Shown here: piece after piece, positions 25,924 through 54,570 of the stretch | Layout: every line of letters begins with the position of its first letter | Numbering within the stretch: the stretch's first letter is position 1 | Origin: a virus | Reading direction: 5' to 3' (one strand) | DNA length: 64,000 nt | IMG/VR virus record: IMGVR_UViG_3300025869_000007 | Coordinates: 1-64,000 of that record | The notes under the pieces: generated by a model | What the model saw: the letters and a program-made list of their open reading frames with translations, nothing else | The model's database searches: none | Told to the model about the DNA's origin: nothing | Position numbers and translations under genes: made by a program

Positions 25924-25933
25924 TAAAGAAAAT

Positions 25934-31263: not shown

Positions 31264-31267
31264 CAAG

Positions 31268-33253
31268 ATGCCTACTCCACTTAATAAAGGCATTAGAGAT
31301 TTCTCGCGTGCAATTCAGCATACTGTTGTTACATATACAAAAACTGAAGACACAACTACGCATGAAACTAAGTGCCCTGTTACCTTTTCAGATAAGTTTA
31401 GTAGTGAGTATACATCTTACTCAGATTGTACAAAGACAAAGACTGTTACAATACCGCCTGTAACAAGAACTACTATAGCTACAACTACAGGAAAATCTGA
31501 AACTTGCGAGACTTGTAAGTCAACAATTAATACATATCCACCAATCACAACTAAAGGAACATTTACAGAAACTATTCCGAAGTGGAGACCTATAGAAAAC
31601 AAGCAGTCATACCTAGTGGAGAATGCAATGCCTTGGCATCCTTTAGGGGTTTGCGGTTTAGCAAAATGGTACATGGCAGACAAAGGGCATCCTGCGTGGG
31701 GCGTAAAAAAGAAAATTCATGCATACAATGATGATGCAACAGAAGAGTATCAAGGAGCTTTAGAGCAAACAGGTATACTAGAAGCAGGAATACAAACAGA
31801 AACATATAAAAATTATTTTAGCGAAGGGAAGCTTGCATCAAGCATTTCAGCTATATCGAACAAGCAAAAAATCTATCAAGGCTTAGAGGGTTTTGTAAGT
31901 GGTGCTTTTTTATGGAGATACAACCATCACAATCCTCACGACAAAGGCTACACTCCTTTGTTTACGGAAATTCAAGACAAGTGGACTCAAACACTAGACG
32001 GAGTAATTTACCCTACAGATTGGGTAAGAGTACGAGTGCAGGGAGTTAAGCTAAATGAAGATGGAGAGATTACTCATGTAGCAGTAATTACAAAATATGG
32101 AACAGGTTCAAATCCTGTATATGCAATTAGAGAAAATTCATATGACGATCCTTTTTGGACAAACAGCCCAAGTGTGTTAACAGAGGCTTCATGCACATTA
32201 GGTTATGAAGGTCATATAGCACTTATTCCATTGGCTAGACTTTTTGAATTTAGTGCGGAAAAAATATTTTACTTTATAGATGATGATACTAAGAACGATA
32301 TAAACTATGATAGCGTAGCAATAGACATAGGTTCAAGAGTAGCAAATTCTCGAAACTATCCACTCACATTATCGGAAAATGAGTTAAGTGAAGATGACTT
32401 AGATGCAGAACCCTACGTGTCAGAGGAAAAGCAAGATGGTGTGAACAACCTAATAGAAGAGCTTGATAGATCACCATTGCAACCTAAAGAGTCCAACTAC
32501 GAACTTGAGGTAGAAAAAGAAAAAGTTAAAGATGAAATCCAAAAGGAAAAAGAGAAAGAGTTGATAAGACCCGCTCCTGCTCTAGAAGACCCTGTAGGAA
32601 ACTCAAATACACCAACGGATTCTTCTTTGAGGTTTAAGTTTTGGGAATACTATCCTAATATATGGAAATTAAATACAAATACTCCTGACTTCTCAGAAAC
32701 AAATTATCCCTACTTTAAGACGTGGAATATAGGAAATGCAGAAGTACTTCCAACTTTTAGAATAACATGGTTTAAAAGATATCCACAAAATCAAGATGAT
32801 CTAGTTGGGGGAGCAGACTATATAAGAAGAGCAATTGATTTTAATCGAAAAATTACTTACACGTGGACAGCGTGGAAAGAATACACATGGCAGTTTACTG
32901 AGTTTGGGACACAAGATTTAAAATGGGTATTAGGGCATCCTGAGATAGAATTTTTACATGACTTTCAAACAGCAAACATACAAACCATTAAAACTAATAG
33001 ATGGTGGGACGATGGTTGGACTACGCAAAGCTCATTTAGTGGAGAGGAGACTTTAAATAACAGATTAGATTTTTATTTCAAGGCTCACAATGAAGAGTTA
33101 AGAATTAGAAACCTAAGTGTAATATTTAGTCACGGATCTAAAATGAACCTAACAAAAAATCTAAGAGATGGTGCAATGATGCCAATATGGTTTAACAACG
33201 CAGGAGGTGATGCTATATTTGTTTTTGAGTTTCCACCTTTCAATAGATCATGA
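31268..33253 (+). CDS. large tail protein, 661 aa
   Basis: Unrecognised. It opens with a Thr/Cys-rich region (residues about 15-100, CETCKSTINTYPPITTKG) and continues with aromatic-rich segments. A charged, low-complexity linker (about 410-435, KEKVKDEIQKEKEKE) separates a C-terminal beta-like part with many Trp (TYTWTAWKEYTWQF). Thr-rich repeats resemble those of the proteins at 21070 and 33250, suggesting related tail-fibre components. It overlaps the next gene by 4 nt. Confidence 0.68.
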   Translation: MPTPLNKGIRDFSRAIQHTVVTYTKTEDTTTHETKCPVTFSDKFSSEYTSYSDCTKTKTVTIPPVTRTTIATTTGKSETCETCKSTINTYPPITTKGTFTETIPKWRPIENKQSYLVENAMPWHPLGVCGLAKWYMADKGHPAWGVKKKIHAYNDDATEEYQGALEQTGILEAGIQTETYKNYFSEGKLASSISAISNKQKIYQGLEGFVSGAFLWRYNHHNPHDKGYTPLFTEIQDKWTQTLDGVIYPTDWVRVRVQGVKLNEDGEITHVAVITKYGTGSNPVYAIRENSYDDPFWTNSPSVLTEASCTLGYEGHIALIPLARLFEFSAEKIFYFIDDDTKNDINYDSVAIDIGSRVANSRNYPLTLSENELSEDDLDAEPYVSEEKQDGVNNLIEELDRSPLQPKESNYELEVEKEKVKDEIQKEKEKELIRPAPALEDPVGNSNTPTDSSLRFKFWEYYPNIWKLNTNTPDFSETNYPYFKTWNIGNAEVLPTFRITWFKRYPQNQDDLVGGADYIRRAIDFNRKITYTWTAWKEYTWQFTEFGTQDLKWVLGHPEIEFLHDFQTANIQTIKTNRWWDDGWTTQSSFSGEETLNNRLDFYFKAHNEELRIRNLSVIFSHGSKMNLTKNLRDGAMMPIWFNNAGGDAIFVFEFPPFNRS

Positions 33254-36200
33254 GTAATTTAACAGAACTTATAGACATTCACAGCTTAGATCATTGCGGA
33301 GACACTAGGCAAAATCCAAAAACAAATAATCTAGTTTTTACAGGACAATACCCGCGCGTTGAAAAATTTGAGGAAATACAAACAAAAGACAGGGCAGGAC
33401 GAGACTCTAGTATACTTAATGTTAAGGGAGTAAACAATTGGGAGTTATGGACTCACGAAGATGCGTGTAAAGATATTGATGGAGGGCATAGCAGAACAGT
33501 AAAGGCATTAAGTTTCCTAGATGGAGTACAAGGATCAACAGATGCGATACAAGGAGTTAAGGACTCTTGGATGGCAGTAGGGCTTACTGAGCTAATTCAT
33601 GGCACAGGAGATAGTAAGATAAGCCTTAAAGACGGAGGTGATCAAACTCTGTTGTTTATGGGCGACACAACAAAGACCTCAAGCTATATAGAGGTAAGAT
33701 ACAAAAGAAACCTACCTGAAGTAGGAGATAAAATAAAATTCAGGGAAGACTTTTTTGCGGAATACATTAAGTCAAACTACTTAGAGGAAATTACTTACTC
33801 TGCATCTGAGTATGAATATACACACAGCACTACAGAGCTAAAGCAGGGCAACCATTATACAATTAAGGTAACAGGCAAGGCTACAAGAGAAGATGGAACT
33901 ATTGTAGATGGCAATTTTCAAATCCCACAAGGAAACGTCGGGAAGGCTAATGTTATAAGTTTTGGAATATCAAACTCTCAAGGGATTCCAATAAGTGACT
34001 ACAATGCAACCTACATAAACGGAGGCGAATATACCAAATCTTTTACGGCAACTAAAAATGCAACAATTGGATTTAGATTAGAAGACTTTGATAGAACAAA
34101 CACAGTAGGATCGTTTACTATCAAGCTTTACGAAAGCATAAAACAGCCAATAAAAAGTGGAGTTGTAAAAAGCGTAGGTAATGTACACATTCTTAATCCT
34201 TTTAATAAAGAAGGACAGGCATCAGAAGAATATGTAGTAAAGAGCATAAATGAAGGCACAAATGAATTTACATTAAAAAGAAGTGACAGGGATAGCATGG
34301 GTTTTCCTGCTGTAACAACACATATCATATCGCCAACACATGGGAAGTGGTGGTCATCAACACAAACTGATTGCTCGTTAGATATATCAGGTAAGTCAGA
34401 TGACGAAACAGCTTTTAATAAAGAATACTCTATTGAAGTTGGTCTAGATGCTCAAAAGCTAGACTTATTTGCAATAGTAGCAAATGCCAATGGCTTAAAT
34501 TGCACATACAATGGGCAAGCTTGGTATACAGTAACATCTAAATTATGCTATTCGCTTTCAGCAGAAAATATAACTATAGGAAATGCATCATCTGTTACCG
34601 AAGTTGATTCAGCAAGCATAAGTAAAGAAAGAAGAATTAGGCATTTTGAATGGATGTTCTTTGATCAAGAACTACTTTCAGAGAATGGTGGAAATCGTAT
34701 GTTTACATACTCACCTACTAAGCTAGATGAAGTAAATGACGATATGCTTTACATCTTTTCTTATCTTAGATGTAAGTATGGATACCCGTGGCTGAATGGA
34801 TTAGAAGAAATAGGCAAATGGAAACAATGTAAGTTTCAACAACCACCTAAAGATGTTCCTGAAATTGAGCCACCTATTGCTACTTGTTGCTTCACTCAGG
34901 TTTCTTGGACATTTTGGAGTCACACCTATGAAACAATATATGAAACTACAGCAACAACTCCACAGACAGAACAGTTTTTTCGCACGGAGTTGGTAGCAGG
35001 AACTGCATCACAGGAAACAGTAACAACAGATCAATCAGGAAACACAGGTACAGACTGTACAGATTTATCTGACACCCTTTCAGTATGGGGTCAATCAGGG
35101 GAAACGAAATCTGATTGGACGTGGAATATATACGGTCCTTTTGGCATTCCTACTTCTTCAGCAGAGATATTTCCAATTCCTTGCGTGCCACCTGTGGACA
35201 GAGGAAGAAATAAATTAAAAAACAGATTAAATGCATTTTTAAAAGGAGTAAAAAGCCTTACATACGAAACTACTGTAGGGGCGCAAGGAGAACATAAATT
35301 AACTTCTTCAGTTTGGTCAAAGCCTAAAGCTTACACTTCACCTCGTTCTACCAAAGATATTGGCAAGTATGTAACATACTTAAATAGTATGACAGGTAGA
35401 ATCGTAGATATAAGTCATGGCGCTCATGTTTTGTCTGACATTACATACACAGTAACTAATTTGTACGCAAAGAATGATGTTATTGCAGAAGGAAGTCAGT
35501 CAACAACAGGATCAACTACTTTAACCTATAATGAAATTCGTGGATTTGCATATGTAAGTTGTAAGCCTAAATACTTTGGAGGCTCATGGACATACGTAAC
35601 ACCAATAAGAGATGTGTTTCCTTATACCGCAATGGTAGACGAAACATTTACTACGAAGACAATACTACAATCAAGTAGCACAATAAAAAGTGAGTACCCA
35701 AGTGTTGAAGCATATGGAAAGTTTTCAGAAGTTTCAAGTTTAGCTTTAGGTGCTTATGATAATAAAAACTTCAAGCCTGATGAAATTATATCGTATGTAG
35801 TTTTTGATATAACTGCACCTCCTTATACATTTCGTGTGTTTGAGGACGACTCCGTAGCAAATGAGTTTACAACGACAGACATTACTCAAGTAGAAGGGAC
35901 ATCACAGTACTACGGAGATTATTACACTACATCTACAGCAAGCACAAGTGAGGTGGCATTTAAGGGAGGCGAGACAGAGTTTAAGACAATGAAGTATGAG
36001 CTTGTGAAGACTTCTGATTATACCTTAATTAGGACATTTGAAACTACAGCATTGGGGTCGTTTACTACTACGATGAATGCTCTTAGTTACGAAAATATGG
36101 ACAAGGACTCTACAGACATAAAGCATTATGGTCTGTGCGGTGAGAAAAGTGAGACAGAAGGAATTAGCTTTTTGCATCAATATAAAGGAACAGATACAGG

Positions 36201-37047
36201 GCAATTGTGGGTAAGCAATCCTAGTGCATACACTAATACAAATTACAAAGATGACTTTTATGAAGCATACTCTGATAGATTTAATGTAAATATAGCAAAA
36301 AGATACGATCAAATAAATGAAGATCGAAATCATGCAAGATATAGACGACTAAACACATATGGCGATGACCCAATTAATAATTTTGTAGAATTTGAATATT
36401 TAAATGATCAACTTAAAAACGGAAAGATCATGGAAGCAGTTGTTGCAGGGGCAGATTACGAACAAAGGCAACGAATAGCAAAGCAACGAAGACAGTATCA
36501 TAGAGGACACAGAGAGTTTACTAGAAATCAAGCAAAGTCAGGACACTCCTTTTATGCTACAGGTGCAGGAGATGCATTTTGGGGAGAGGTAAGACGAGGA
36601 ACAAATACATCAAGCTCAAGACCTGTTAACATAAGAGTGACAACACAGTCAGCCGATGATAGTACATTTACTAAATGGTCAACAAGCGCACAAAGCTCAT
36701 CATGGAAAAACATAGCGGGTAACACAAAGCTACTAGTGCAGGACAAGCGTTTATCAGCAGAGCTTGCACCTTACAATCAAGCAAGGAATGGTGCATGGCC
36801 GAGACCTGATCATGGAAGTACAACACAGGGAGGATTTCGAGACTTTGATGATTATAGGCAAAACTTTCCACACAGTCTCAGTTCTACTATGCCTGATAGG
36901 AGAGATAGATGGAGAAAACCTGAACCTCCATACAATCCGATAAACGATTATTATAATCGATCACCTTCTCCTACATCATGGTATGAAATAAATACATTCA
37001 GTCACACAAGGCTTCTCACAGCAGAAAACGAATGTTTTACAGAGTAA
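33250..37047 (+). CDS. large tail protein, 1265 aa
   Basis: Unrecognised. Beta-rich, Thr/Ser/Tyr-rich protein. Residues about 545-570 carry CCFTQVSWTFWSHTYETIYE, matching the motif at about residue 996 of the 21070 protein. The last ~200 residues are basic and Gln/Arg/Ser-rich (EQRQRIAKQRRQYHRGHRE). Probably a fibre or side-tail structural protein, and with its neighbours part of an elaborate tail tip. It ends one base before the GTG of the glycosyltransferase. Confidence 0.68.
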   Translation: MSNLTELIDIHSLDHCGDTRQNPKTNNLVFTGQYPRVEKFEEIQTKDRAGRDSSILNVKGVNNWELWTHEDACKDIDGGHSRTVKALSFLDGVQGSTDAIQGVKDSWMAVGLTELIHGTGDSKISLKDGGDQTLLFMGDTTKTSSYIEVRYKRNLPEVGDKIKFREDFFAEYIKSNYLEEITYSASEYEYTHSTTELKQGNHYTIKVTGKATREDGTIVDGNFQIPQGNVGKANVISFGISNSQGIPISDYNATYINGGEYTKSFTATKNATIGFRLEDFDRTNTVGSFTIKLYESIKQPIKSGVVKSVGNVHILNPFNKEGQASEEYVVKSINEGTNEFTLKRSDRDSMGFPAVTTHIISPTHGKWWSSTQTDCSLDISGKSDDETAFNKEYSIEVGLDAQKLDLFAIVANANGLNCTYNGQAWYTVTSKLCYSLSAENITIGNASSVTEVDSASISKERRIRHFEWMFFDQELLSENGGNRMFTYSPTKLDEVNDDMLYIFSYLRCKYGYPWLNGLEEIGKWKQCKFQQPPKDVPEIEPPIATCCFTQVSWTFWSHTYETIYETTATTPQTEQFFRTELVAGTASQETVTTDQSGNTGTDCTDLSDTLSVWGQSGETKSDWTWNIYGPFGIPTSSAEIFPIPCVPPVDRGRNKLKNRLNAFLKGVKSLTYETTVGAQGEHKLTSSVWSKPKAYTSPRSTKDIGKYVTYLNSMTGRIVDISHGAHVLSDITYTVTNLYAKNDVIAEGSQSTTGSTTLTYNEIRGFAYVSCKPKYFGGSWTYVTPIRDVFPYTAMVDETFTTKTILQSSSTIKSEYPSVEAYGKFSEVSSLALGAYDNKNFKPDEIISYVVFDITAPPYTFRVFEDDSVANEFTTTDITQVEGTSQYYGDYYTTSTASTSEVAFKGGETEFKTMKYELVKTSDYTLIRTFETTALGSFTTTMNALSYENMDKDSTDIKHYGLCGEKSETEGISFLHQYKGTDTGQLWVSNPSAYTNTNYKDDFYEAYSDRFNVNIAKRYDQINEDRNHARYRRLNTYGDDPINNFVEFEYLNDQLKNGKIMEAVVAGADYEQRQRIAKQRRQYHRGHREFTRNQAKSGHSFYATGAGDAFWGEVRRGTNTSSSRPVNIRVTTQSADDSTFTKWSTSAQSSSWKNIAGNTKLLVQDKRLSAELAPYNQARNGAWPRPDHGSTTQGGFRDFDDYRQNFPHSLSSTMPDRRDRWRKPEPPYNPINDYYNRSPSPTSWYEINTFSHTRLLTAENECFTE

Positions 37048-37048
37048 T

Positions 37049-39151
37049 GTGAATGATAGAACGATATTTGTATTTTCAGAGTCAAACAAACAAGTTTTAC
37101 AATACTGTATAAAATTTGGATATTCTTATCTCGTAACAAGTGAGGTAAAAAATCTGATTAATTTGTTAGAGAAGTTTATTTATTCTCATGACAAAATTAT
37201 AATAATACAAGATCATGTTAAATGGATATCTGAGCAAGAAGTAAATATACACTTAGATGACAAAGCTTTTGCTATATGTAAGTGGGACTTGGGTGTAATA
37301 TGTTTAGACCTAAGGCATAAAGATACAAAAACATTTATAAAATTATTTAGGTTACACAAAGAATTTTGGAAAACATGGAGTTTAATAAAATCAAAAAGAT
37401 ATAAGGAAGAAAAAAGAGCAAAAAAGATATATAGTAAACCTTTAACTAAATATGATTTTAAAAACTACAATGCACTAGACAATTGGAATTTATTTAATTT
37501 TAATGGAAGTAATACTAAAGTAGAAACCTTTCGTAAAACTACTTTTATTTATAATCATACTTTTGCACCACAAGAAATTAATATAGGTATAGCAACTATT
37601 GTATTACCTAGAATAGAATTACCTTGGTTAAATGAATGGATTAATCACCATAAAAGATTAGGAGTAACAAAATTTTTAATATATAATAATGGGTTCATAA
37701 GTAATGATACTCAATATGAAAACGAATTTGATCAATTTGAAAAACAGTACAAGTGGAGCAAAAAACCAAACATATATTATATTACCGACAAGGATAACGA
37801 AGAAACAACTAGAGAGCTTTATAATATAGCAAATGCACATCCTGAAGTAGAAATAGTAGAGTGGGTGCAGGGAGTAAACCACGACTACCCTTACCCTGAA
37901 AGTCAAATGCAGATGGTGTACGACTCCTGCAAAGACATAAAGTATAAGTGGCTATACATAGACCCTGATGAGTTTCTACACTTACATAAACACAATAACA
38001 TACAAGGCTACTTAACTGAAAGTGGTCTCATTAATAGTTCAAGTATCAGGATTCCATCAAAGTTGTTTAGCGAAAGAAAAATAGGCAAGTCTGTATCTTC
38101 TATCACCAATTGGAGCATGGATGAGAAAATGAGAAAATGCTTAATAGATGGAGAAGTATCTAGGAACTCTACAATACATAATTTAAAAGTTGGAGATAGT
38201 CACAATTACGCAGATAGGGATGATATAGAAATATATCATTATTGCGGTTCTCCGCTTGATCACAAAGATCAATCAAGAAAAAAAATATATATGGATGAAG
38301 GCAGTCCACCTTTTGATAAAATTATATATTCAAAAAGAATAAATCGTTATGAAAATACAGGACTATCAGCAATTATTCTTAGGCGAATTGAAGTGCCTTG
38401 GCTAAAGGAATGGATAGATCATCACATGGATTTAGGATTTGAGAAAATCAGAATCTATGACAATGGCACTTTGTCATTCGATGATAGTGAGTGGGCAGAG
38501 GGAGGAAGAGAATTAACCGAAGAGGAAAAAGCAAAAAAACGATGGAAGAAAAAACCCGACATTGAATACTTTGACGATCTTTCAGATGATAAAATATTAG
38601 AAATGCTAAAACAGATTGAAGCAGACTATCCTAATGTCGAAGTTATTCCTTGGGAAAAAGGAAAAGATCACGAATATAATTATCCTCTTAGTCAATGGGA
38701 ATCATTGAAGGATTCTACGATCAAAGAACCTTCGACCTTTTGGTTCTTTGCTGACCCTGATGAATATTTAGTTCTAAAAAAACACAATGACATTAGAGAA
38801 TTAATTGATGAATATCCAAATGCTAAAGTAATAAAATTTAAGCAACGAATATTTGATCAACGAATAAGAGGAAAAGCAGTAAAGGATATAATAAATTGGG
38901 GATACGAATCTCATATGCCTAAAAATTTAGTTTTGGGCAAGATGCAAGACGGACTAAATGTACATGAAGCAAATCCGATAGATAGTTCAGATATAATTTG
39001 GATCGATAAGGAGGTAGCAAGATATAATCATTATCGTGGAGTTCCGCAATATATGGGTGAGGATCAAAATAAAAAAGATTGGGAGCTTGCAGGATCACCA
39101 AAAAAATTCATACTTCGTGACAACTCGATAAATGATCTCGGAAAAAAATAA
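37049..39151 (+). CDS. tandem two-domain glycosyltransferase (GT92/GT2_4 type)
   Basis: 700 residues with two homologous catalytic domains. Domain 1 has VLPRIELPWLNEWINHHK (about 185) and WLYIDPDEFLHL (about 304). Domain 2 has ILRRIEVPWLKEWIDHHMD (about 443) and FFADPDEYLVL (about 569). The DPD(E) motif is the metal-binding site of GT-A enzymes of the GT92/Glyco_tranf_2_4 type. An unassigned N-terminal ~175 residues precede them. Two active sites could add two sugars in turn. GTG start two bases after the previous stop, and it heads the glycan cassette. The nucleotide-sugar donor is unknown. Confidence 0.82.
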   Translation: MNDRTIFVFSESNKQVLQYCIKFGYSYLVTSEVKNLINLLEKFIYSHDKIIIIQDHVKWISEQEVNIHLDDKAFAICKWDLGVICLDLRHKDTKTFIKLFRLHKEFWKTWSLIKSKRYKEEKRAKKIYSKPLTKYDFKNYNALDNWNLFNFNGSNTKVETFRKTTFIYNHTFAPQEINIGIATIVLPRIELPWLNEWINHHKRLGVTKFLIYNNGFISNDTQYENEFDQFEKQYKWSKKPNIYYITDKDNEETTRELYNIANAHPEVEIVEWVQGVNHDYPYPESQMQMVYDSCKDIKYKWLYIDPDEFLHLHKHNNIQGYLTESGLINSSSIRIPSKLFSERKIGKSVSSITNWSMDEKMRKCLIDGEVSRNSTIHNLKVGDSHNYADRDDIEIYHYCGSPLDHKDQSRKKIYMDEGSPPFDKIIYSKRINRYENTGLSAIILRRIEVPWLKEWIDHHMDLGFEKIRIYDNGTLSFDDSEWAEGGRELTEEEKAKKRWKKKPDIEYFDDLSDDKILEMLKQIEADYPNVEVIPWEKGKDHEYNYPLSQWESLKDSTIKEPSTFWFFADPDEYLVLKKHNDIRELIDEYPNAKVIKFKQRIFDQRIRGKAVKDIINWGYESHMPKNLVLGKMQDGLNVHEANPIDSSDIIWIDKEVARYNHYRGVPQYMGEDQNKKDWELAGSPKKFILRDNSINDLGKK

Positions 39152-39791
39152 ATTTATCTACATTAAAGTCCCGAAGACTGCAACCTCATCAATTGAATAT
39201 ACACTTACTCAAGCATTCAAAGATGATGAACTAACTTGGGATGAGCAATTTGAGAAATATCCGTGGATAAGAAAGCATTCTAAATTAGATTGGTTCTATG
39301 AGCATTTGATAGATTTGTCGGAATATTTTTGCTTTTCATTTATTAGAAACCCGTGGGATTTAGTTCTATCTTTTTGGACATATTATCAGAATGAAAAGAT
39401 TATTCCTTGGAAGCCCGTCAATTGGGCAGTCTTAGAAGATATGGGTTACGAAAGGTGGAAGGAAGGAGATGATCACTATATAGAAAAAGAAAAGTCTACA
39501 AAAGGTGTAGATTTTAATGAGTGGATAAAAACAAATTACGATTGGATGCAGGGCGATCAAGTTTCCTTCTTCGATAATGCCGACAGGGAAATGGATTTTA
39601 TTGGAAGATATGAAAATCTAAATGCAGATTACGATACACTCTGTAAAAAATTAAAGATAGAAAATAAATTAGGTCATGTTAATAAATCCTCGACCAAATC
39701 AAATAGGCAAGATACATATAACGAAGAAAGTAAAAAAATTGTAGAAGATTATTTTATGCGTGATATAGAAAAGTGGGGATTTGAGTTTTGA
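39132..39791 (+). CDS. sulfotransferase-like protein 1
   Basis: 219 residues. Near the N-terminus IYIKVPKTATSSIEYTL gives the 5'-phosphosulfate loop (K-x-x-K-T-x-x-S-S) of PAPS-dependent sulfotransferases. CFSFIRNPWDLVLSFW gives the 3'-phosphate-binding R-N-P...S. Enzymes of this group move sulfate from PAPS to a carbohydrate or tyrosine hydroxyl. ATG overlaps the end of the glycosyltransferase by 20 nt, so translation is coupled. The PAPS donor must come from the host, because no PAPS-synthesis gene is seen here. Confidence 0.8.
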   Translation: MISEKNKFIYIKVPKTATSSIEYTLTQAFKDDELTWDEQFEKYPWIRKHSKLDWFYEHLIDLSEYFCFSFIRNPWDLVLSFWTYYQNEKIIPWKPVNWAVLEDMGYERWKEGDDHYIEKEKSTKGVDFNEWIKTNYDWMQGDQVSFFDNADREMDFIGRYENLNADYDTLCKKLKIENKLGHVNKSSTKSNRQDTYNEESKKIVEDYFMRDIEKWGFEF

Positions 39792-40657
39792 AGGGAGTAC
39801 AATTTGATATGCATGGTGGACGAAGTGGGGATCAAGCTAGGACTCTCTATTCATTATGGGCTTTTGCGGAAGAAGCAGGTGTGCATCCTGTGTGGAATGA
39901 GTTTTATTGGGATAAAATACATAGCAGATTCTTCAATGAAGAAGGATGCAAGAAACACATGAAGGCACCGAGTGAATTTGATAAACAAATTATTGTTGCA
40001 GACACAATTAAATGGAACGGATTACCTTATGCAGACTTTAAAGAAATTTGCAATGCTATAGAAGACTCCGATGATGGCACTCTTTGCATAGTAAAAGGAA
40101 CACCAAGGGTAGAGCCTTGGAAGTTAAATATGTGGCATCACGATAAACTCATTAAATGGAAAGTTGAGAATAGACCAAAAGTAGAATACCAAAAATTATT
40201 TTACTATGGATTTGAGATAGAGAAAATTGATGAGGTCATTATTCAAGTAAGGCGAGGAGATAGATCAGATTATATGAGAGAGTGCGGATATACATATGAT
40301 TACTATGTAAGTCTAATTGATTGGATAAAAAATAATATCTCTATGTCTTCGGGTGCAGAAATGAAGATAACAATAATATCCTCGGATGCAGGAAGGGCAG
40401 GAACAAGTAATGATCTCTTAAAACTAGGAGAGATAGATCGAGTTCGTGTAGATATTGGGGACTATCACGACTTTGATAGGCAAGTCCTACAGATGCTTGG
40501 ATGCTCTCATTTGTTTATAAATCATAGTGGATTTACGAAAGCGATTTACTATGCAAAACAATTTGGTAATACATATATTAACGAATCAGTATTTGGCGGA
40601 CAATACGACAAGATGAAATATTACGGACAGCCCGAAAATTTAAAATTCTATAGATGA
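39788..40657 (+). CDS. fucosyltransferase-like glycosyltransferase (GT11/GT23 type)
   Basis: 289 residues. IIQVRRGDRSDYM holds the R-R-G-D signature of GDP-fucose-dependent fucosyltransferases. A second motif (LQMLGCSHLFINHSGFTKAIYYA) occupies the position of the conserved C-terminal motif (S-x-F, A-x). It begins GKSG-like: MHGGRSGDQARTLYSLWAFAEEAG, the N-terminal G-R-x-G-N/D-Q element. A TTG start overlapping the preceding TGA is preferred over ATG 39809. It would add a deoxyhexose or related sugar to a growing glycan. Donor not certain. Confidence 0.7.
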   Translation: MKGVQFDMHGGRSGDQARTLYSLWAFAEEAGVHPVWNEFYWDKIHSRFFNEEGCKKHMKAPSEFDKQIIVADTIKWNGLPYADFKEICNAIEDSDDGTLCIVKGTPRVEPWKLNMWHHDKLIKWKVENRPKVEYQKLFYYGFEIEKIDEVIIQVRRGDRSDYMRECGYTYDYYVSLIDWIKNNISMSSGAEMKITIISSDAGRAGTSNDLLKLGEIDRVRVDIGDYHDFDRQVLQMLGCSHLFINHSGFTKAIYYAKQFGNTYINESVFGGQYDKMKYYGQPENLKFYR

Positions 40658-41313
40658 AAGACACATATAAAATAAATAAATTAGAAGCACCGATTATTAA
40701 TGAAGAATGGGATGGTTTTGTACGAGCATCACCTTATCCAAAGTATCAAACTTTGCGAACGCATCAGCCTGTCAATGCAGAAGGATTGCCATCTGAAGTA
40801 GTATTTTACTCCCAACTTGGGCAGGACAAGTTTGTGGTTGAGCATCTAAACGGAAAAAGAGATGGGGTATGGGTAGACATTGGTTGCAATCAATCGATTT
40901 CTCTATCAAACACATATTTCCTTGAGCGTAATTTAGGTTGGCGAGGGATATCCATAGATATGCTCGATTGGATTCCAAGGGATTGGCAAGGAGTAAGAAA
41001 CAAAGATATGCTATACGCTCCCTGTGATGCATTAGAATTGAATTACGAAGAAGAGTTCAATAAGCAAGGTTTCCCCGAAGTAATCGACTACCTAACAATT
41101 GACATTGAGGAAGCAACTACTCCTGCTATGAAATTGATCCCTTGGGATAAGTACAAGTTTCGAGTTATCACCATAGAGCATAACGCCTATACTGATAATG
41201 GTGAGCAGATGAACATACAAAGAGAATTCCTATCAGATAAAGGATACACTTTAGAGATTGCAGGAAACCTAGCAGGATGCGCACAGGATGACTTTTGGGT
41301 TTTAAATGATTAG
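40654..41313 (+). CDS. FkbM-like SAM-dependent methyltransferase
   Basis: 219 residues. FYSQLGQDKFVVEHL followed by GVWVDIGCNQSISLSNTYFLE is the usual N-terminal half of FkbM methyltransferases, with the SAM-binding G-x-G-like motif I. IDYLTIDIEEATTPAMKLI and FRVITIEHNAYTDNG fit the later motifs. The family commonly O-methylates sugars. It is coupled by 4 nt to the genes on either side. Confidence 0.75.
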   Translation: MKDTYKINKLEAPIINEEWDGFVRASPYPKYQTLRTHQPVNAEGLPSEVVFYSQLGQDKFVVEHLNGKRDGVWVDIGCNQSISLSNTYFLERNLGWRGISIDMLDWIPRDWQGVRNKDMLYAPCDALELNYEEEFNKQGFPEVIDYLTIDIEEATTPAMKLIPWDKYKFRVITIEHNAYTDNGEQMNIQREFLSDKGYTLEIAGNLAGCAQDDFWVLND

Positions 41314-41890
41314 CTTTGAGAAAAAGTTTATACTCATTACTCCCGAAAAAACAGGTTCGGTTTCCTTGGTTACTGCTCTTAGGAAATACATAGACTTTTC
41401 TAAAGTAACAGAGCAACGGAAAGATTGCTTTGATTTTGGTGATAGTTTTGGAACTAAATATGCAAAGCATTTACCCCTGTCTCGTTATGAAAAATTATGG
41501 GATGATCAAGTATATGGATCACTAGATGAATACCATCTATGCGTGTCTATACGAAACCCTTTTGACAGGGAGGTTTCTTGGTGGAAATGGACAAGGAGAA
41601 AGGCGAGTCAAGACCCTAAAGACTTTAAGCAGTTTGTATTAAATTTTAAAACAACTCCTCTGCTAGATAAGATTGAATCTAAAAAATACAAAATAAAAAA
41701 CTTTATAAGATTTGAAAACATAGAAAAAGACTTCAAGGCTTTCTGCGTAAAGGTAGGTATTGATGAAGAGCTTCCCCATAGAAACAAATCGTCACATATG
41801 CATTACACTAAATACTACGATGATGAAACTCGTCAAATCGTTGCGGAAAAATACGCAAAGGATATAGAATATTTTAATTATGAATACTAA
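41306..41890 (+). CDS. sulfotransferase-like protein 2
   Basis: 194 residues. FILITPEKTGSVSLVTAL replaces the usual K-T-G-S/T-x-S loop, and CVSIRNPFDREVSWWKW gives the R-N-P-x-x-R-x-x-S second site. A late motif (PHRNKSSHMHYTKYYDDETRQIV) is typical of this family's C-terminus. It differs clearly from the other four sulfotransferase-like proteins in the window, so they are not recent duplicates. Start ATG 41306 lies in the 3' end of the methyltransferase gene. Confidence 0.78.
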   Translation: MISFEKKFILITPEKTGSVSLVTALRKYIDFSKVTEQRKDCFDFGDSFGTKYAKHLPLSRYEKLWDDQVYGSLDEYHLCVSIRNPFDREVSWWKWTRRKASQDPKDFKQFVLNFKTTPLLDKIESKKYKIKNFIRFENIEKDFKAFCVKVGIDEELPHRNKSSHMHYTKYYDDETRQIVAEKYAKDIEYFNYEY

Positions 41891-42488
41891 AGAAAGACTG
41901 CTAAATGAAAGAAGAATGAACCCGAACGGGAATGACATACCTAGTCATACCCAAGGGCTTTTTGATTTAATTGATTATATCGGTGGGATTAATGACAAAA
42001 AAATCTGTGAGGTAGGTTCTTTTAGGGGAGTTTCTTCTGAGGTATTTCTATCACATCAGCCAAAAGAAGCTACCTTTGTGGATATTTGGGGAAAGGATGA
42101 AAGTTATCGTCAGTCAAATTGGGCGTTTGATAAAAAGAAAATTTATTGGGATGAAATAAAAAAAGAATTTATTGAAAGAGTTGGAAGGTATAAGGACAAG
42201 ACGATAATCAAAGTGTTTCACGACTACTCCGACAGAGCTTCTTTATCAGCAGATGAAAGCTCATTAGATTTTGTTTACTTAGATGGAGATCACTCAAAGG
42301 ATGCGGTGATAAAAGATATTGAGAATTGGCTTCCTAAGATCAAGCAGGGTGGGTTTCTTTGTGGGCATGATTATCATCCTCCCGTAGAAGATAGGGTAAA
42401 GGATGCATTAGATGAGTTCTTTGGAAGTGAATTTATAAAAGAAAACATCGCAACATTCTCGGATCGTAGTTTTGCTATAAAAAAATGA
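41880..42488 (+). CDS. class I SAM methyltransferase (Methyltransf_24-like)
   Basis: 202 residues. KKICEVGSFRGVSSEVFLS is motif I, ATFVDIWG the second strand, and LDFVYLDGDHSKDAVIKDIENWLPKIKQGGFLCGHDYH the post-motif region with the D-G-D-H metal site of cephalosporin-hydroxylase/Methyltransf_24 relatives. Such enzymes often O-methylate sugars. It overlaps the sulfotransferase before it and the glycosyltransferase after it. Confidence 0.78.
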   Translation: MNTKERLLNERRMNPNGNDIPSHTQGLFDLIDYIGGINDKKICEVGSFRGVSSEVFLSHQPKEATFVDIWGKDESYRQSNWAFDKKKIYWDEIKKEFIERVGRYKDKTIIKVFHDYSDRASLSADESSLDFVYLDGDHSKDAVIKDIENWLPKIKQGGFLCGHDYHPPVEDRVKDALDEFFGSEFIKENIATFSDRSFAIKK

Positions 42489-43177
42489 TTTATGTCCTAA
42501 CAATACATTACAAGTCTAGCCAATGGATTCCTATTCAAACTAGCTATCTCAAGCAAAACTTAAAGCATTACCAAGTTTATAGCTACATTGATGGGATTGA
42601 GATTGATTTGGATGATATCAATTTTACATTTACAGGACAAAGCTCTATTGAAATTGACGGAAGCAAAGGTCACGCAAAAAAACTTGATCAGCTTGTGTCA
42701 GAAATAAAAGATGCATCAGATGATGACATAATTTTATTTCTTGATGGTGATTCTTTTCCTATAGCACCCTTAAATAAATTCATAGAAAATTGGATTAGTA
42801 AATATGACTTTGTGTCGATTGTGAGAAAAGAAATGAATCACACTTTTCCGCATCCATCTTTTGCATTTTGCAAATTTGGAACATGGAGAAACCAAGGCTT
42901 AACATGGAAAGTGAAATTTGACACAGGAGGAGTATTAAAGGATCAAGTTGAAGAAAAAAATCTTAAATGGAAAAAGCTCTACAGAACTAAATCTATGGGC
43001 ATTCATCCTGTGATGTTTGGAGTATATGCAGACCTCGTATATCATCACACCGCAGGATTTCGATCCGCAGTCACTCGATGGGATAAGGATAATCAAAAAT
43101 TCAATTCGCAGGAAAGAGAAAGAGAAGCTCTTACTATTCTAGAAAAAATAAAAAGTAAGAAAATTAAATTCGTGTGA
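42485..43177 (+). CDS. glycosyltransferase, GT-A-like
   Basis: 230 residues. IYVLTIHYKSSQWIPIQTSYLK opens like a GT2-type strand, and IILFLDGDSFPIAPLNKFI has the DGD metal-binding site after a hydrophobic strand. HPSFAFCKFGTW and GVYADLVYHHTAGFR resemble acceptor-loop regions. Donor and acceptor unknown. ATG overlaps the previous stop by 4 nt. Confidence 0.7.
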   Translation: MIYVLTIHYKSSQWIPIQTSYLKQNLKHYQVYSYIDGIEIDLDDINFTFTGQSSIEIDGSKGHAKKLDQLVSEIKDASDDDIILFLDGDSFPIAPLNKFIENWISKYDFVSIVRKEMNHTFPHPSFAFCKFGTWRNQGLTWKVKFDTGGVLKDQVEEKNLKWKKLYRTKSMGIHPVMFGVYADLVYHHTAGFRSAVTRWDKDNQKFNSQEREREALTILEKIKSKKIKFV

Positions 43178-43914
43178 AAACATTTACAATTGGCAGGAGT
43201 GGGCTATGTGCAGAATTGCAAAACTTGATTGGATTTTATTACAAATATATTCATGGCACAGAAAACAAAATTCATGTAGAGTCTGCCTCTCCATATTTTA
43301 GAAAGTTCTGCATTTCATCTCTATTTCAATTTCCAAATAATTTTACATTCGGAAGAAGGGATTTGGTTAAACACAAACGAGAGAAGCTTTATCATAAATA
43401 TTTTCCTTTCGGATTTACTTTTGACTACACAGAGAATTTTAAATCTGAAATTGACAATATAATAAATGAGCTAATCCTTCCTGATTCCTATGTATGCGCT
43501 CATATAAGGAGAGGGGATAAAGTAGGAGAAAAGGAGTGCAGACAGGCAAGCACTACAGGAGTAATTGAGGGAAAGCGATTCGAGTCCTCGGATTATATTC
43601 ATTACTGCCCCACCAATATAGATACAATCTTCCTTATGACAGATGACTACAAAAGCATAAAGGAAGCTAAAGAGTTTATTGATAGGCAAAAATTATCTTT
43701 AAAAGTTTTGCACTTAACAAAGGAATCGCAGGATGGACACTCAGAAAAAGAGAACAATAAAAAAATATACCTAAAACAAGAACTTTTACAGTTCTTTGCG
43801 GAAATAGAAATTGCAAAAAAATCTTCCACATTTATAGGCACTAGATCAAGTAATGTTTACAGGTATATTAAGAAATCCTACAAACCAAATTGCAACTTTG
43901 TTCAATTAGATTGA
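43174..43914 (+). CDS. fucosyltransferase-like glycosyltransferase 2
   Basis: 246 residues with SYVCAHIRRGDKVGEKE, the H-x-R-R-G-D motif of the GT11/GT23/O-FucT superfamily, and IDTIFLMTDDYKSIKEAKEF, the nucleotide-binding region. A C-terminal segment (IEIAKKSSTFIGTRSSNVYRYI) matches the conserved S-x-F/S-N-x element. GTG start coupled to the preceding stop. Distinct from the 39788 enzyme, so it may form another linkage. Confidence 0.72.
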   Translation: MKTFTIGRSGLCAELQNLIGFYYKYIHGTENKIHVESASPYFRKFCISSLFQFPNNFTFGRRDLVKHKREKLYHKYFPFGFTFDYTENFKSEIDNIINELILPDSYVCAHIRRGDKVGEKECRQASTTGVIEGKRFESSDYIHYCPTNIDTIFLMTDDYKSIKEAKEFIDRQKLSLKVLHLTKESQDGHSEKENNKKIYLKQELLQFFAEIEIAKKSSTFIGTRSSNVYRYIKKSYKPNCNFVQLD

Positions 43915-43918
43915 GGCT

Positions 43919-44572
43919 ATGATAATATCAGATAAATATAAATTTCTAGTGTTCCATAATCCTAAATGTGGGGGTTCAACGATGGCAACTTGGTCAAGGT
44001 CTCACTACGACAAAGAGCCACCATATCGTCAGAATATACATCCCCAAGAATGCACTATGGAATCTTTTAGGAAGCAAGGTGACGGCATCGATACGAGAGA
44101 TTACGGGCATGGAGGCACAGGTGCATTCGTCAGATTATATGGGAGAGAAAAATTCGATGAGTATAAAAAATACATAGTCGTTAGAAACCCAATAGATCAA
44201 TGTAAATCTTTGCTCAATCAGTTTGTTAAACACAATGAAAGATTCGGAGAAAAACCTAACCAATGGGGATCATTAGAGTGTAACGAGCAAGGTGTGCGAA
44301 AGGCATTGTTATGGGTTGAGGCAAGACTAAAGGACTTCTTTATTTTAGAGAAGCAAAAGGGAGTCATGTTTGATGAAGTTGTAAGGTTGGGTGACCTTAC
44401 TAAGTGGTTCAAAAATTTGTATGAGTCTAATGGCGAAAAAATTAAATGGACTTTGTCGCATAAAGGAAACACAAGAGTTGATGTAGAAACACCCAATTTG
44501 ACAGACGAGGATTTAGATTACATTCAGAACGCAGAATATATGAAGTATGTAAGGGAGACTTATTGTGGATAA
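43919..44572 (+). CDS. sulfotransferase-like protein 3
   Basis: 217 residues. YKFLVFHNPKCGGSTMATW gives the PAPS loop (N-P-K-C-G-G-S-T), and YIVVRNPIDQCKSLLNQF the second site. The C-terminal half is diverged. ATG 43919 follows a Shine-Dalgarno-like GAGG. Position within the cassette supports sulfation of the same glycan. Confidence 0.75.
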   Translation: MIISDKYKFLVFHNPKCGGSTMATWSRSHYDKEPPYRQNIHPQECTMESFRKQGDGIDTRDYGHGGTGAFVRLYGREKFDEYKKYIVVRNPIDQCKSLLNQFVKHNERFGEKPNQWGSLECNEQGVRKALLWVEARLKDFFILEKQKGVMFDEVVRLGDLTKWFKNLYESNGEKIKWTLSHKGNTRVDVETPNLTDEDLDYIQNAEYMKYVRETYCG

Positions 44573-45194
44573 AAGAATACCTAGTGGGGATGGAGTTGAT
44601 CTATTGTTTATTGGGTCAAGTCGATTTGCATTCGTCAGTCAGTATATAAAATATCGTCACGGAATTATTATAGAAGCTATTCCCGAAGAGTTTGAATACA
44701 TGGAAGCCAATGTAAAAAATTGCAATGCAATGCATAAAACTAATTTCATTCCTTTGAATGAGTTGATTACAGACAAGGCAGGACAAAGTTATCAGTTTAA
44801 TATAATTTTAAATAAAAAAGACTCACACGCAGGATCATCTTCTATCTATGAGCTTCAAGCGTGGAAATATATGCTTGAAAAGACTAACTCTATAGATTTG
44901 ACGTCTACTACAATTGAAAAAATATTAGATACTTCCAAATGGCAGGACAGGTTACTTGATGTAGTATTGGATGTCCAAGGTGCGGAACTACTTGCCTTGA
45001 AAGGCTTTGGCGAATACATAAATAATGTTAAAAGGCTAGTAGTAGAAGCTTCGGTAAAAGAATTTTATAAAGGTGGGTGCTTGGCAAATGAATTAAATGC
45101 TTTCTTGTTAAACAACAACTTTTCTAAAGTACACGAAGATAAATATTTTAAGAAGAATGGACACGGAGATATTTGCTATATAAACAATGAATGA
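44565..45194 (+). CDS. FkbM-like methyltransferase 2
   Basis: 209 residues. HGIIIEAIPEEFEYMEANV is the strand-2/acidic-loop element, KTNFIPLNELITDKAG the next strand, and LDVVLDVQGAELLALKGFG the D-x-Q-G-x-E-L motif typical of FkbM-type methyltransferases. Likely an O-methyltransferase on a sugar. GTG start; the end overlaps the sigma-like gene. Confidence 0.72.
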   Translation: MDKRIPSGDGVDLLFIGSSRFAFVSQYIKYRHGIIIEAIPEEFEYMEANVKNCNAMHKTNFIPLNELITDKAGQSYQFNIILNKKDSHAGSSSIYELQAWKYMLEKTNSIDLTSTTIEKILDTSKWQDRLLDVVLDVQGAELLALKGFGEYINNVKRLVVEASVKEFYKGGCLANELNAFLLNNNFSKVHEDKYFKKNGHGDICYINNE

Positions 45195-45447
45195 ACGAGG
45201 AAAAGAAAATCGAAGTTACGCAGGAAACGTCAAGAAGACGGGTGTTAGGACGAAGAAGATCAATGAAAAGCTATCAGAGATGGTAGATAATATGACTCAC
45301 CCACATACTTGTGCAGAGATTGCTGAATATTGCGTAATGTCAAAACAGGCAGTATATCAAATAGAGAAAAAAGCAATGAGGAAGATAGCTAATAAATATC
45401 CCGAACTAAAAAAGGAATTAGAAACACTCGCAATTCTTTCAGTTTGA
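45187..45447 (+). CDS. sigma-70 region-4-like helix-turn-helix protein
   Basis: 86 residues. TCAEIAEYCVMSKQAVYQIEKKAMRKIANKYPEL fits the helix-turn-helix of sigma region 4 (E-I-A-x(5)-S-x-Q-x-V-x-x-I-x-x-x-A-x-x-K-I). Sigma region 2 and 3 are absent, so it is not a full sigma factor. It may act as an anti-sigma, a co-activator, or part of a split sigma, and may relate to the unusual promoter boxes in this phage. Overlaps the methyltransferase gene by 8 nt. Confidence 0.7.
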   Translation: MNERGKENRSYAGNVKKTGVRTKKINEKLSEMVDNMTHPHTCAEIAEYCVMSKQAVYQIEKKAMRKIANKYPELKKELETLAILSV

Positions 45448-45480
45448 TGCTTATTGACATCATGCATTAGTAAAGAGGTA

Positions 45481-46074
45481 ATGCCATTAAAAGATAATAT
45501 ATTATTTCTTCATATACCAAGGACAGGAGGCACGTCCATAACGAAAGCTATGGGCATAAAAAAACTAAGGAAGAGCCAAGAGGAATACCTGTACTGTCCA
45601 CACAAAGGGTATCAACACTACACAGGGTTGCAGATTGAAGGACTAGGGCAAGAGTGGGATAAATCATTTTCTGTAGTAAGAGATCCCGTCATGAGGCTAC
45701 AGTCAGAGTGGTTCTTGGGTTATGACAATTGGAGGAGCATAGCGTTACAAAGAAATACTACAATGCATGAAATTTTTTGGCAGATATGTAAAAGAAATAA
45801 AAACACAAAGGGACACTACTGTCATTTTGCTTCATATTCTTTTATGTATAAGGGCATAGATGATTTAAGGCTACTAGATTTTCACAACCTACAAAACGAT
45901 TGGGAAGCGATGGTGGATGAGTGGAGCTTGCCGTTTGATAGACAGCTTGAGAGAAAAAGCATATCTAGATCAAGAGGCAGAGAAAAAATGCCATACTCGC
46001 TAAAGCAAGACCTTGCACAGTTATACAAAGAAGATTATAAGCTACTTCGTGAGAAGGGTATGGCATGGGCATAG
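45481..46074 (+). CDS. sulfotransferase-like protein 4
   Basis: 197 residues. ILFLHIPRTGGTSITKAMG holds the P-R-T-G-G-T-S loop of Sulfotransfer_2-type enzymes, and SFSVVRDPVMRLQSEWFLGY the R-D-P-x-x-R-x-x-S motif. ATG 45481 with AGAGGT upstream is preferred over a TTG start at 45454. Last member of the continuous cassette. Confidence 0.8.
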   Translation: MPLKDNILFLHIPRTGGTSITKAMGIKKLRKSQEEYLYCPHKGYQHYTGLQIEGLGQEWDKSFSVVRDPVMRLQSEWFLGYDNWRSIALQRNTTMHEIFWQICKRNKNTKGHYCHFASYSFMYKGIDDLRLLDFHNLQNDWEAMVDEWSLPFDRQLERKSISRSRGREKMPYSLKQDLAQLYKEDYKLLREKGMAWA

Positions 46075-46921: not shown

Positions 46922-47389
46922 ATGACAATAATACCAACAACAAACGAAATCTTAAACAAGCTTGGAGGAGGAATACCTTTGTTTGTTTATGGGACACTTA
47001 AACGCACCTTTCACAATCATAGGTTTTTAGAAAACGAAACCTTTATTTCGGAAGGAAAAACAGAAACGCCATTTTTATTATATAAGCATTGGGGCTTACC
47101 ATATGTTTCTAATCGTGATGGATGGGAAACTCATGGACATCAAATAAAAGGCGAAGTGTACTCAGTGCGAGACATCAATGCCATAGATAGATTAGAGGGA
47201 GCGCCACACCACTACCATGCCCATCAAGAGATAATAGACATGGGAGGAATGCAATTGCCATGCAGAATTTATTTAGACTCAAGTAAGAGACATGAAATGC
47301 AATTAGACGATTGTATATTTACAGATGAGTGGACTCACGAATTTTCAGAATCTATAGAAAACGATATAAACTACATAAATATAGGATAA
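46922..47389 (+). CDS. gamma-glutamylcyclotransferase-like (GGCT/AIG2) protein
   Basis: 155 residues. PLFVYGTLKRTFHNHRFL is the substrate-binding Y-G-T-L motif and NAIDRLEGAPHHYHAH holds the catalytic Glu (about residue 92) of the GGCT/AIG2 fold, with GEVYSV before it. Enzymes of this fold release 5-oxoproline from gamma-glutamyl amines. In phage and bacterial operons AIG2-like proteins often accompany amidoligases, one of which is encoded at 61566 here. Leaderless start. Confidence 0.82.
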   Translation: MTIIPTTNEILNKLGGGIPLFVYGTLKRTFHNHRFLENETFISEGKTETPFLLYKHWGLPYVSNRDGWETHGHQIKGEVYSVRDINAIDRLEGAPHHYHAHQEIIDMGGMQLPCRIYLDSSKRHEMQLDDCIFTDEWTHEFSESIENDINYINIG

Positions 47390-50801: not shown

Positions 50802-51033
50802 AAAAATAGCAGACGAACACTTTTTATATACAGATTGGAGAGACAGGGATTGGAGCATATGGAGACAATCCAAACATGGAAGTAATCAATGGGCAATGAG
50901 TTGCAGGGAAGAAAATATGGAAATGTTTGATGATGCTTTTTGGACAAGAACAAGCTGTGTCAGGCAAATAAAATATTTAGAAAATCCTGAGAATGAAAAA
51001 CGCGAAATAGATAAAAGAAAAAATGAAAACTAA
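50791..51033 (+). CDS. hypothetical protein, 80 aa
   Basis: Unrecognised. Very aromatic and charged (DWRDRDWSIWRQ). Overlaps its neighbours on both sides and directly precedes the isolated sulfotransferase gene. Confidence 0.5.
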   Translation: MHYKKIADEHFLYTDWRDRDWSIWRQSKHGSNQWAMSCREENMEMFDDAFWTRTSCVRQIKYLENPENEKREIDKRKNEN

Positions 51034-51622
51034 TTTACAATTTATTCATGTGGGAAAATGCGGAGGCATGACTATAAGAAATATGCTTAAAAGTCAGTCT
51101 ATACTTTTTTTTGCAATTCATGTGCAAGCGCCCATGTTAGATTCGCAATTTAAAAGCATAATACCAATACGCAATCCTGTAGAAAGATTTTGCTCAGCAT
51201 TTTATTGGAGAAAGAAAAAGACAAGCCATAATCAAAAATTAAGATTTAATGGAGAGAAGAATTTTTTAGATAAGCATAAAGACATAAATAGTTTGATCGA
51301 CAACCTAGAAGAGTTGCAGACAAATTATGTACACCACATAGGCGAAGGATACCATTGGTACTTAGCAAATTATTTAAAAGTATTAACTCCACAATTATTA
51401 AAAGGACTAGTGTTTACAAATTCAATAAAAGAAGATTTAGGCAAAATGTATGGCAAAGAATTTGATGACCTATGGGACAACAAGGGTACTAGTGAGTATG
51501 AGTTAACAAGCAAAGAAAGAGAGAAACTAAAAGAACACTTAGCCTTAGATTATAAAACCCTAGAACAGCTATTTAACAAAGTTAGTATTAATAACAATAA
51601 AACCAAAGATATTTTAAAATAA
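51023..51622 (+). CDS. sulfotransferase-like protein 5, separate from the cassette
   Basis: 199 residues. LQFIHVGKCGGMTIRNML gives the K-C-G-G-x-T loop (H-V-G in place of H-x-P), and IIPIRNPVERFCSAFYWRK gives R-N-P-x-x-R-x-x-S. ATG overlaps the preceding gene. About 5 kb from the other four, in the early-gene block and in line with small genes, so it may act at a different time. Confidence 0.76.
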   Translation: MKTNLQFIHVGKCGGMTIRNMLKSQSILFFAIHVQAPMLDSQFKSIIPIRNPVERFCSAFYWRKKKTSHNQKLRFNGEKNFLDKHKDINSLIDNLEELQTNYVHHIGEGYHWYLANYLKVLTPQLLKGLVFTNSIKEDLGKMYGKEFDDLWDNKGTSEYELTSKEREKLKEHLALDYKTLEQLFNKVSINNNKTKDILK

Positions 51623-53692: not shown

Positions 53693-54570
53693 GAATTTTA
53701 ATTATAGGTTCAACAGGATGGGTTGGTGAGCAAGTGTGGTGGAACGCAAACAGGTCAGGGCATGAGTGCCACACAATAAGCAGGACAGAATTTTGGATGG
53801 ACGAAGAATTTAATAATTATTTAAAAAATGTAGATGCAGTAGTGAACTGTGCAGGATATGCAGGAACGCCAAATGTAGACGCTTGCGAATTACCTGAAAA
53901 TAGAGAAGCCGTCCATACAGCAAATGTAAAAATTCCAAAAAGATTAGCGGAGTTTTGTAAAGACATTCCATTTGTCCATGTGTCTAGCGGATGCCTATAT
54001 CAAGGACAGGGCAGAACAGGAAGACTTAGAGAAAGAACAGATTACATAGGAAAGCATTTTACTATAGACGATTGGCAACATGATAGTTGGTCAGAGAGGA
54101 ATGCACCAAACTTTAGAGGCAGTTATTATGCTCAAACTAAAATAGAGGGAGAGCAACAACTAGAAAATGTAGATTGTTGGATTTTGAGACCTAGAATGTT
54201 TTTTGGATTGGGAAAACATAATAAAAATTTTATCTCAAAAATTATAGAGTATGACACTATAGTAAACGCAATTAACAGCGTTACACACATAGGAGAGTTT
54301 TGTGTATCCATTATAAAATGCATAAATTTAAATCCTCCTTTTGGAACTTATAATATAACGCATCCTGTGCCTGTGATGACTAGTCAAATACTAGACACTT
54401 TAGGGTATGAAAAAAAATATGTTACTTGTCAGAAGTTTAATGAAGACATGAGGGCAAAAGGATTAGCGGAAAGAAGTTTTACGACTTTGGACTCTCGCAA
54501 AGCTTGCCAACATAAAATAGGGCTATCACTAGACCCAATGCGAATAATCCAAAACTACAAGCACCAATGA
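53689..54570 (+). CDS. extended SDR, RmlD-like sugar-nucleotide reductase/epimerase
   Basis: 293 residues. MRILIIGSTGWVGEQVWW is the Rossmann G-x-x-G-x-x-G, DAVVNCAGY the post-strand motif, HVSSGCLYQG the catalytic Ser, and SYYAQTKIEGE the Y-x-x-x-K pair. This order matches dTDP-4-dehydrorhamnose reductase/NDP-rhamnose-synthase relatives. It could supply a nucleotide sugar for the glycosyltransferases of the cassette or for the TAGT enzyme next to it. Overlaps TerL and the next ParB gene by 4 nt each. Confidence 0.78.
   Translation: MRILIIGSTGWVGEQVWWNANRSGHECHTISRTEFWMDEEFNNYLKNVDAVVNCAGYAGTPNVDACELPENREAVHTANVKIPKRLAEFCKDIPFVHVSSGCLYQGQGRTGRLRERTDYIGKHFTIDDWQHDSWSERNAPNFRGSYYAQTKIEGEQQLENVDCWILRPRMFFGLGKHNKNFISKIIEYDTIVNAINSVTHIGEFCVSIIKCINLNPPFGTYNITHPVPVMTSQILDTLGYEKKYVTCQKFNEDMRAKGLAERSFTTLDSRKACQHKIGLSLDPMRIIQNYKHQ

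Follow-up and report, generated by a model that had tools for sequence, protein, structure and literature searches.

A tail-linked, exchangeable gene cassette of an uncultured virus predicted to direct the synthesis of a sulfated, O-methylated glycan

Hypervariable glycosyltransferase regions linked to tail genes are known in phages, as is the glycosylation of virions. In pelagimyophages and cyanomyophages, a variable block of sugar genes, mainly glycosyltransferases, lies beside the tail-fibre genes; the function assigned to it is modification of the host O-chain, and the text mentions neither sulfotransferases nor methyltransferases (PMC7029224). For mycobacteriophages, PMC12619734, citing Freeman et al. 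2023, reports capsid and tail tube subunits bearing phage-linked glycans. A soluble cytoplasmic enzyme that glycosylates an appendage protein before assembly is known from the O-glycosylation of flagellin by FlmG (PMC7591256), a cellular and not a viral system, which serves here as an analogy only. The function of the sulfotransferases encoded by phages has been described as unclear (PMC10580990). Here, we analyzed a cassette of 12 open reading frames (ORFs) on the + strand, at positions 37049-46074 of the uncultured virus record IMGVR_UViG_3300025869_000007, whose first 64 kb (of 83,952 bases) constitute the window under study. This cassette contains several predicted sulfotransferases and methyltransferases in addition to glycosyltransferases; to our knowledge, neither sulfation nor O-methylation is known in mycobacteriophage virion glycosylation.

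The record possesses structural genes for a portal, a head protease, a major head protein and a large terminase, and its terminase and head genes come from a different and poorly known phage compared to those of PMC7029224. The cassette genes mostly overlap by 4-20 bases (spacings in order, starting from the preceding tail gene: +1, -20, -4, -4, -8, -11, -4, -4, +4, -8, -8 and +6) and all frames are intact. The preliminary description of this DNA placed the cassette directly after the tail-fibre genes and indeed a single base separates it from the last tail gene (33250-37047), the label 'tail fibre' being positional. The cassette is also the highest-AT 9 kb of the window (rank 1 of 220). No hydrophobic or membrane segment was found in any cassette protein (maximum 19-residue Kyte-Doolittle value 1.22), unlike the GtrABC-type systems of O-antigen conversion, which comprise a membrane flippase, a membrane-anchored GtrB and a polytopic Gtr. 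A nucleotide search with the cassette against cultured phages gave no match, nor did tblastn of the products of 37049, 39788 and 42485 against the same phages. IMG/VR also gave nothing when scanned with single proteins (the large glycosyltransferase, sulfotransferase 1 and the product of a PDDEXK gene), and alignments were used instead.

We then assigned the cassette products to enzyme families, judging Pfam matches against the curated cut-offs. The Sulfotransfer_2 (PF03567) cut-off was passed by sulfotransferase 1 (39132-39791; E 1e-12, phrog_3347 3e-19), sulfotransferase 2 (41306-41890; E 9e-6, 34% to a sulfotransferase in the cassette of the close relative L003) and sulfotransferase 4 (45454-46074; E 2e-6, 54% ortholog in L003). 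The TTG start of the latter at 45454 is probably too early, since the L003 ortholog begins at the equivalent of the in-frame ATG 45481. The weakest, sulfotransferase 3 (43919-44572; E 0.044), stayed below the cut-off and belongs to the sulfotransferase hidden Markov model (HMM) family. A fifth sulfotransferase, outside the cassette (51023-51622, + strand) and without an ortholog in L003, did not pass the PF03567 cut-off either; it has a weak PF00685 match, a match to the sulfotransferase HMM, a P-loop and an RNPVER motif. By direct reading, all five proteins possess a P-loop of the type found with 3'-phosphoadenosine-5'-phosphosulfate (PAPS) as donor (PKTATSS, PEKTGSVS, PKCGGST, PRTGGTS and GKCGGMT) as well as the 3'-phosphate motif (RNP/RDP...S), and in the sulfotransferase alignments A3 and A9, R89 was invariant and S21 and S97 were conserved in at least 90%. 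The preliminary description had made its sulfotransferase calls depend on a PAPS pocket: the motifs are intact in all of them, and the fold prediction, obtained for the weakest (43919), is of modest confidence (AF2 pLDDT 73; best PDB match the sulfotransferase 3rnl, E 5e-3, probability 0.95, with low TM-scores and nucleotide kinases also among the matches). The viral sulfotransferase profile matched heparan sulfate 6-O-/2-O-sulfotransferases (5t03, E 2e-5), which carry the same PAPS motifs; by contrast with these, the viral enzymes are soluble, measure about 200 amino acids and have no Golgi anchor.

The first cassette gene (37049-39151) encodes a tandem GT2_4/GT92-type glycosyltransferase of two modules, with Glyco_tranf_2_4 (PF13704; E 4e-19, repeated, 69 bits) and Glyco_transf_92 (PF01697; 33 bits) over the cut-off. 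The residues of its DxDE motif (D569, D571 and E572) were invariant in the alignment, and the corresponding profile A8 matched the galactan synthase 8d3t (E 3e-5). Three methyltransferases were recognized: two FkbM-family O-methyltransferases, at 40654-41313 (Methyltransf_21 E 1e-4, 22.9 bits for a cut-off of 22.7; relative in the locus L274) and 44565-45194 (Methyltransf_21, PF05050, E 7e-7, 29.9 bits for the same cut-off of 22.7; TIGR01444 score under its own cut-off), and a Methyltransf_24 enzyme at 41880-42488 (E 2.5e-14), with relatives in 10 sulfotransferase loci. The enzyme calls of the preliminary description therefore stand for the tandem glycosyltransferase, the methyltransferases and three sulfotransferases, less firmly for the fourth, whereas its GT-A glycosyltransferase and one of its fucosyltransferase-like enzymes are motif-only. 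The putative GT-A glycosyltransferase (42485-43177) displays a DGD motif and no significant Pfam or PHROG profile match; its one relative belongs to another virus and lies near a sulfotransferase in L302. The protein of 39788-40657 contains a VRRGD motif, with no Pfam, NCBIfam or PDB match and no significant PHROG. That of 43174-43914 resembles FUT8/NodZ enzymes (FUT8_N_cat E 0.023, below the cut-off), its HIRRGDKV motif is invariant in itself and two viral relatives, and the best PDB matches of its profile A7 were all FUT8, at E 0.15. An hhalign comparison of the two proteins aligned the motif only, and a PDB sequence search with each alone found nothing. Both share an HxRRxD-type motif with profile scores absent or under the cut-off, and we call them 'fucosyltransferase-like' only. 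The sigma-like gene noticed earlier amid the cassette was recovered as a sigma-70 region-4-like helix-turn-helix (HTH) protein at 45187-45447 (Sigma70_r4 2e-4, below the cut-off).

A terminase search gave five close relatives, L003, L004, L005, L006 and L007 (terminase identity 90%, 82%, 59%, 59% and 60%, respectively). At the same spot, L003 carries two RgpF-like glycosyltransferases, an HldE/TagD-like nucleotidyltransferase (cytidylyltransferase), another sulfotransferase and a different methyltransferase, together with a protein that matches tail fibres very weakly; after these genes come the orthologous HTH gene (54%), the orthologous last sulfotransferase (54%) and then the common flank at 52-86%. 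L006 presents, between tail and terminase, GT8-like (by reading), CAP59-like, sulfotransferase, NodZ-like, GT25, DUF1796 and GT2 genes, and L005, where it overlaps, has the same genes by length and order. At this site in L007, a large gene, a 123-aa gene and the terminase leave no room for a cassette. The presence of different sugar cassettes at one site of a single phage lineage, between the tail and the lysis/terminase genes, indicates from gene content and order that the block is an exchangeable module swapped between fixed flanks, which is new here; in the literature searched, we found no description of multi-sulfotransferase cassettes or of their exchange. The L006 sulfotransferase found by hmmscan had escaped the initial filter of the genome search, so that absences from that search are soft, and IMG/VR records may be fragments. 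As a separate observation, the stand-alone HTH gene stays at the 3' boundary of the cassette in L003 while the sugar genes differ, and its product is a possible regulator.

Comparable gene sets occur in other uncultured phages. A search of IMG/VR with the sulfotransferase alignment gave 228 confirmed stretches, from which 78 loci were kept, and we compared 83 loci (77 from IMG/VR, DLP_6, ACG-2014f, two published uncultured phages, L003 and L006). At least two sulfotransferases were present in 60 of the 83, with a maximum of 8 in 16 kb (iterated HMM), and whole contigs held up to 11; among the 15 contigs searched, 2 had a T4-type capsid gene and 6 a Terminase_6N match. Sulfotransferase-rich cassettes are therefore common among uncultured phages, and the number of sulfotransferases, which had been thought exceptional, is not so. 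In L274, the order is sulfotransferase, GT2_4, RVGD-motif protein, sulfotransferase, two FkbM, two sulfotransferases, further glycosyltransferases and Methyltransf_24, a predicted gene set close to that of the window in an otherwise different contig. In a single run (L274:1-16606), this 167 kb contig combines at least four sulfotransferase genes with genes resembling those for UDP-galactopyranose mutase, pyruvyltransferase and caspase. Among 120 non-redundant sulfotransferase neighbours, the commonest Pfam families were glycosyltransferases, methyltransferases and sugar-nucleotide enzymes, with few members per family. A PHROG tail fibre protein lies approximately 1.1 kb upstream of sulfotransferase pairs in L255, L259, L262, L264, L268 and L272, which are probably one lineage, and 1.7 kb upstream of sulfotransferases in L296; in some of these loci, a terminase or tail sheath gene lies downstream of the sulfotransferases. 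The Synechococcus phage ACG-2014f (NC_047712), an unrelated member of the Kyanoviridae, has comparable genes by annotation (NDP-sugar enzymes, glycosyltransferases, a methyltransferase and two sulfotransferases), with the tail fibre gene gp236 1.75 kb downstream of a sulfotransferase; it differs in having its own nucleotide-sugar and aminotransferase genes. We know of no experiment on this sugar cluster. The DLP_6 sulfotransferase (25-31%) was rejected as evidence for a cassette, as it stands alone among replication genes.

Outside the cassette, a gene inside the tail module (25883-27127, + strand) has a product with a predicted GT-A glycosyltransferase fold (AF2 pLDDT 79), a candidate priming enzyme. 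The best Foldseek match among 177 at E<=1e-3 was human COLGALT1, the collagen hydroxylysine galactosyltransferase (9evj, E 7e-9), and the other matches listed were almost all glycosyltransferases; with TM-scores of about 0.4, the modelled similarity to COLGALT1 is one of fold and not orthology. Residues E128/D130 and D295 are conserved. The gene lies directly 3' of that for a 1617-aa tail-module protein and is conserved at 53-55% in L006 and L007, of which L007 is without a cassette at the cassette site. It has relatives in at least 80 IMG/VR loci, usually right after a large gene; no match was found in cultured phages or among Pfam families, nor a PHROG match for the large proteins upstream. 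Three large Ser/Thr-rich (16-21%) proteins encoded on the + strand after the tail module, at 27520-31263, 31268-33253 and 33250-37047, are candidate acceptors. The predicted fold and position of the GT-A enzyme suggest glycosylation of a tail protein by these phages, with the cassette enzymes elaborating the glycan.

Overall, recognizable enzyme families, intact PAPS-type motifs and the recurrence of the same combination elsewhere make it well supported that the cassette is a pathway for a sulfated, O-methylated glycan, as initially proposed. For its target, the argument draws on gene order, on exchange and recurrence beside tail-fibre genes and on the predicted fold of the tail-module enzyme. 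We favour, at about even chances, a cytoplasmic synthesis in which tail or fibre proteins of the phage itself receive this glycan and the exchange of cassettes varies it. Of the tail or capsid decoration proposed earlier, the virion as target is favoured by the tail-linked locus in several phage groups, the lack of a membrane protein and the conserved GT-A enzyme inside the tail module; the acceptor, the identities of the sugars, the products, the order of the steps, the expression with the tail genes and the purpose are what we infer from these. The cassette would be read on from the tail genes and a branched glycan built in the cytoplasm. The enzyme of 25883-27127 may put the first sugar on Ser/Thr-rich tail proteins, and the tandem GT2_4/GT92-type, putative GT-A and two fucosyltransferase-like enzymes would extend the glycan with host sugar nucleotides, one donor perhaps coming from an RmlD-like enzyme. 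The three methyltransferases would cap hydroxyls, and sulfate taken from host PAPS would be transferred by four or five sulfotransferases. Through whole-cassette swaps, related phages would carry different glycans, in the manner of serotypes; the glycan may serve to shield from defences or grazers or to alter adsorption. Several points weigh against this reading: the link between the enzymes and a virion protein is our own deduction, the supply of PAPS by the host is assumed and the fucosyltransferase-like calls are weak. In addition, the proteins at the tail-fibre position (27520-37047) have no Pfam family and the last one (33250-37047) no PHROG match either, so that their name is positional only, and relatives of the 25883-27127 enzyme also occur in phages without a detected sulfotransferase cassette, where it may act independently.

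The neighbourhood of tail-fibre genes fits host-surface functions as well, and remodelling of the host surface is the strong rival, which we judge possible and less likely than tail decoration. Lipopolysaccharide, capsule or exopolysaccharide precursors would be modified from the cytoplasmic side during infection, blocking competing phages or the sticking of progeny to debris. The glycosyltransferases of the pelagimyophage hypervariable region were published as modifying the host O-chain (PMC7029224), the RgpF, GT25 and Caps_synth families of related cassettes are typical of surface polysaccharides, and proximity to tail fibres is equally expected of receptor-related genes. However, the cassette encodes no flippase, polymerase, undecaprenyl-linked transferase or any membrane protein, unlike GtrABC-type converters, and therefore cannot alone flip or polymerise a surface polysaccharide; its late, tail-linked position would also leave little time for remodelling the surface.

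We give little credence to hypermodification of a DNA base by glycosylation and sulfation, as a shield of the phage DNA against restriction. Sulfotransferase/glycosyltransferase-based base modification in phages is reported in PMC10829341, which refers to Iyer et al. 2013, and two TAGT-family glycosyltransferases are encoded elsewhere in the genome (55166-55981, and genome 82256-83194, that is L002:18256-19194), one between two ParB-like genes and the other directly after another ParB-like gene. TET/JBP-TAGT systems pair such a glycosyltransferase with an oxygenase or hydroxymethylase; in the record, which may be incomplete, TAGT was found twice and the partner was not, as neither Tet_JBP nor a thymidylate-synthase-type base hydroxymethylase (PF00303) was detected there or in G004 and G005. 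Neither Tet_JBP nor TAGT was detected in 15 sulfotransferase-rich contigs (the Tet_JBP search there having no positive control), and the cassette sits with tail genes, not with DNA metabolism. It is just as improbable that the site is a genomic parking spot, a recombination-prone location through which sugar genes of host origin come and go, unrelated to one another and with no single pathway. A near-complete change of gene set between close relatives, the AT-richness and the weakness of some catalytic assignments would agree with it, but the frames are all intact and overlapping, the GT2_4, several sulfotransferases, two FkbM and Methyltransf_24 recur in L274, and the sulfotransferase neighbours with a Pfam match are mostly sugar enzymes.

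Other genes of the genome were also noted. An RmlD-like NDP-sugar reductase (53689-54570, + strand; RmlD_sub_bind 1e-17), located after the terminase, is a possible supplier of sugar donor; its identity is 60% in L003 and 51% in L004, for terminases at 90% and 82%. A gamma-glutamyl cyclotransferase-like gene (46922-47389), an Amidoligase_2 gene (61566-62627) and a class II glutamine amidotransferase gene (62662-63480) occur in this one genome; such a set is known from systems proposed to amidate peptides or metabolites. By reading, five proteins encoded at 54567-59301 and L002:17463-18314 are ParB-like, and one of them seems to carry a fused DNA methyltransferase-like domain. Shine-Dalgarno-like motifs hardly exceed chance expectation (13 of 57 genes against 17%) and the upstream regions are A-rich, which hints at a host independent of such sites; this was not used for naming the host. 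Host assignment through terminase matches in bacterial genomes gave only 29-35% matches in many phyla and was rejected as uninformative.

More tentatively than for this virus alone, we propose that many uncultured phages carry multiply sulfated, O-methylated tail glycoproteins, made by a conserved collagen-galactosyltransferase-like priming enzyme and exchangeable cassettes with up to eight or more sulfotransferases. If true, this would be a viral counterpart to serotype switching and a heparan-like sulfation code on the phage particle. If virions are decorated in this way, they would bear strain-specific sulfated coats that alter adsorption, recognition by defences, the charge of the particle and its sulfur content, and the cassettes would offer new glycan-sulfating enzymes. 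This reading gives a testable function to a class of genes usually filed under generic metabolism in surveys of viral metabolic genes.

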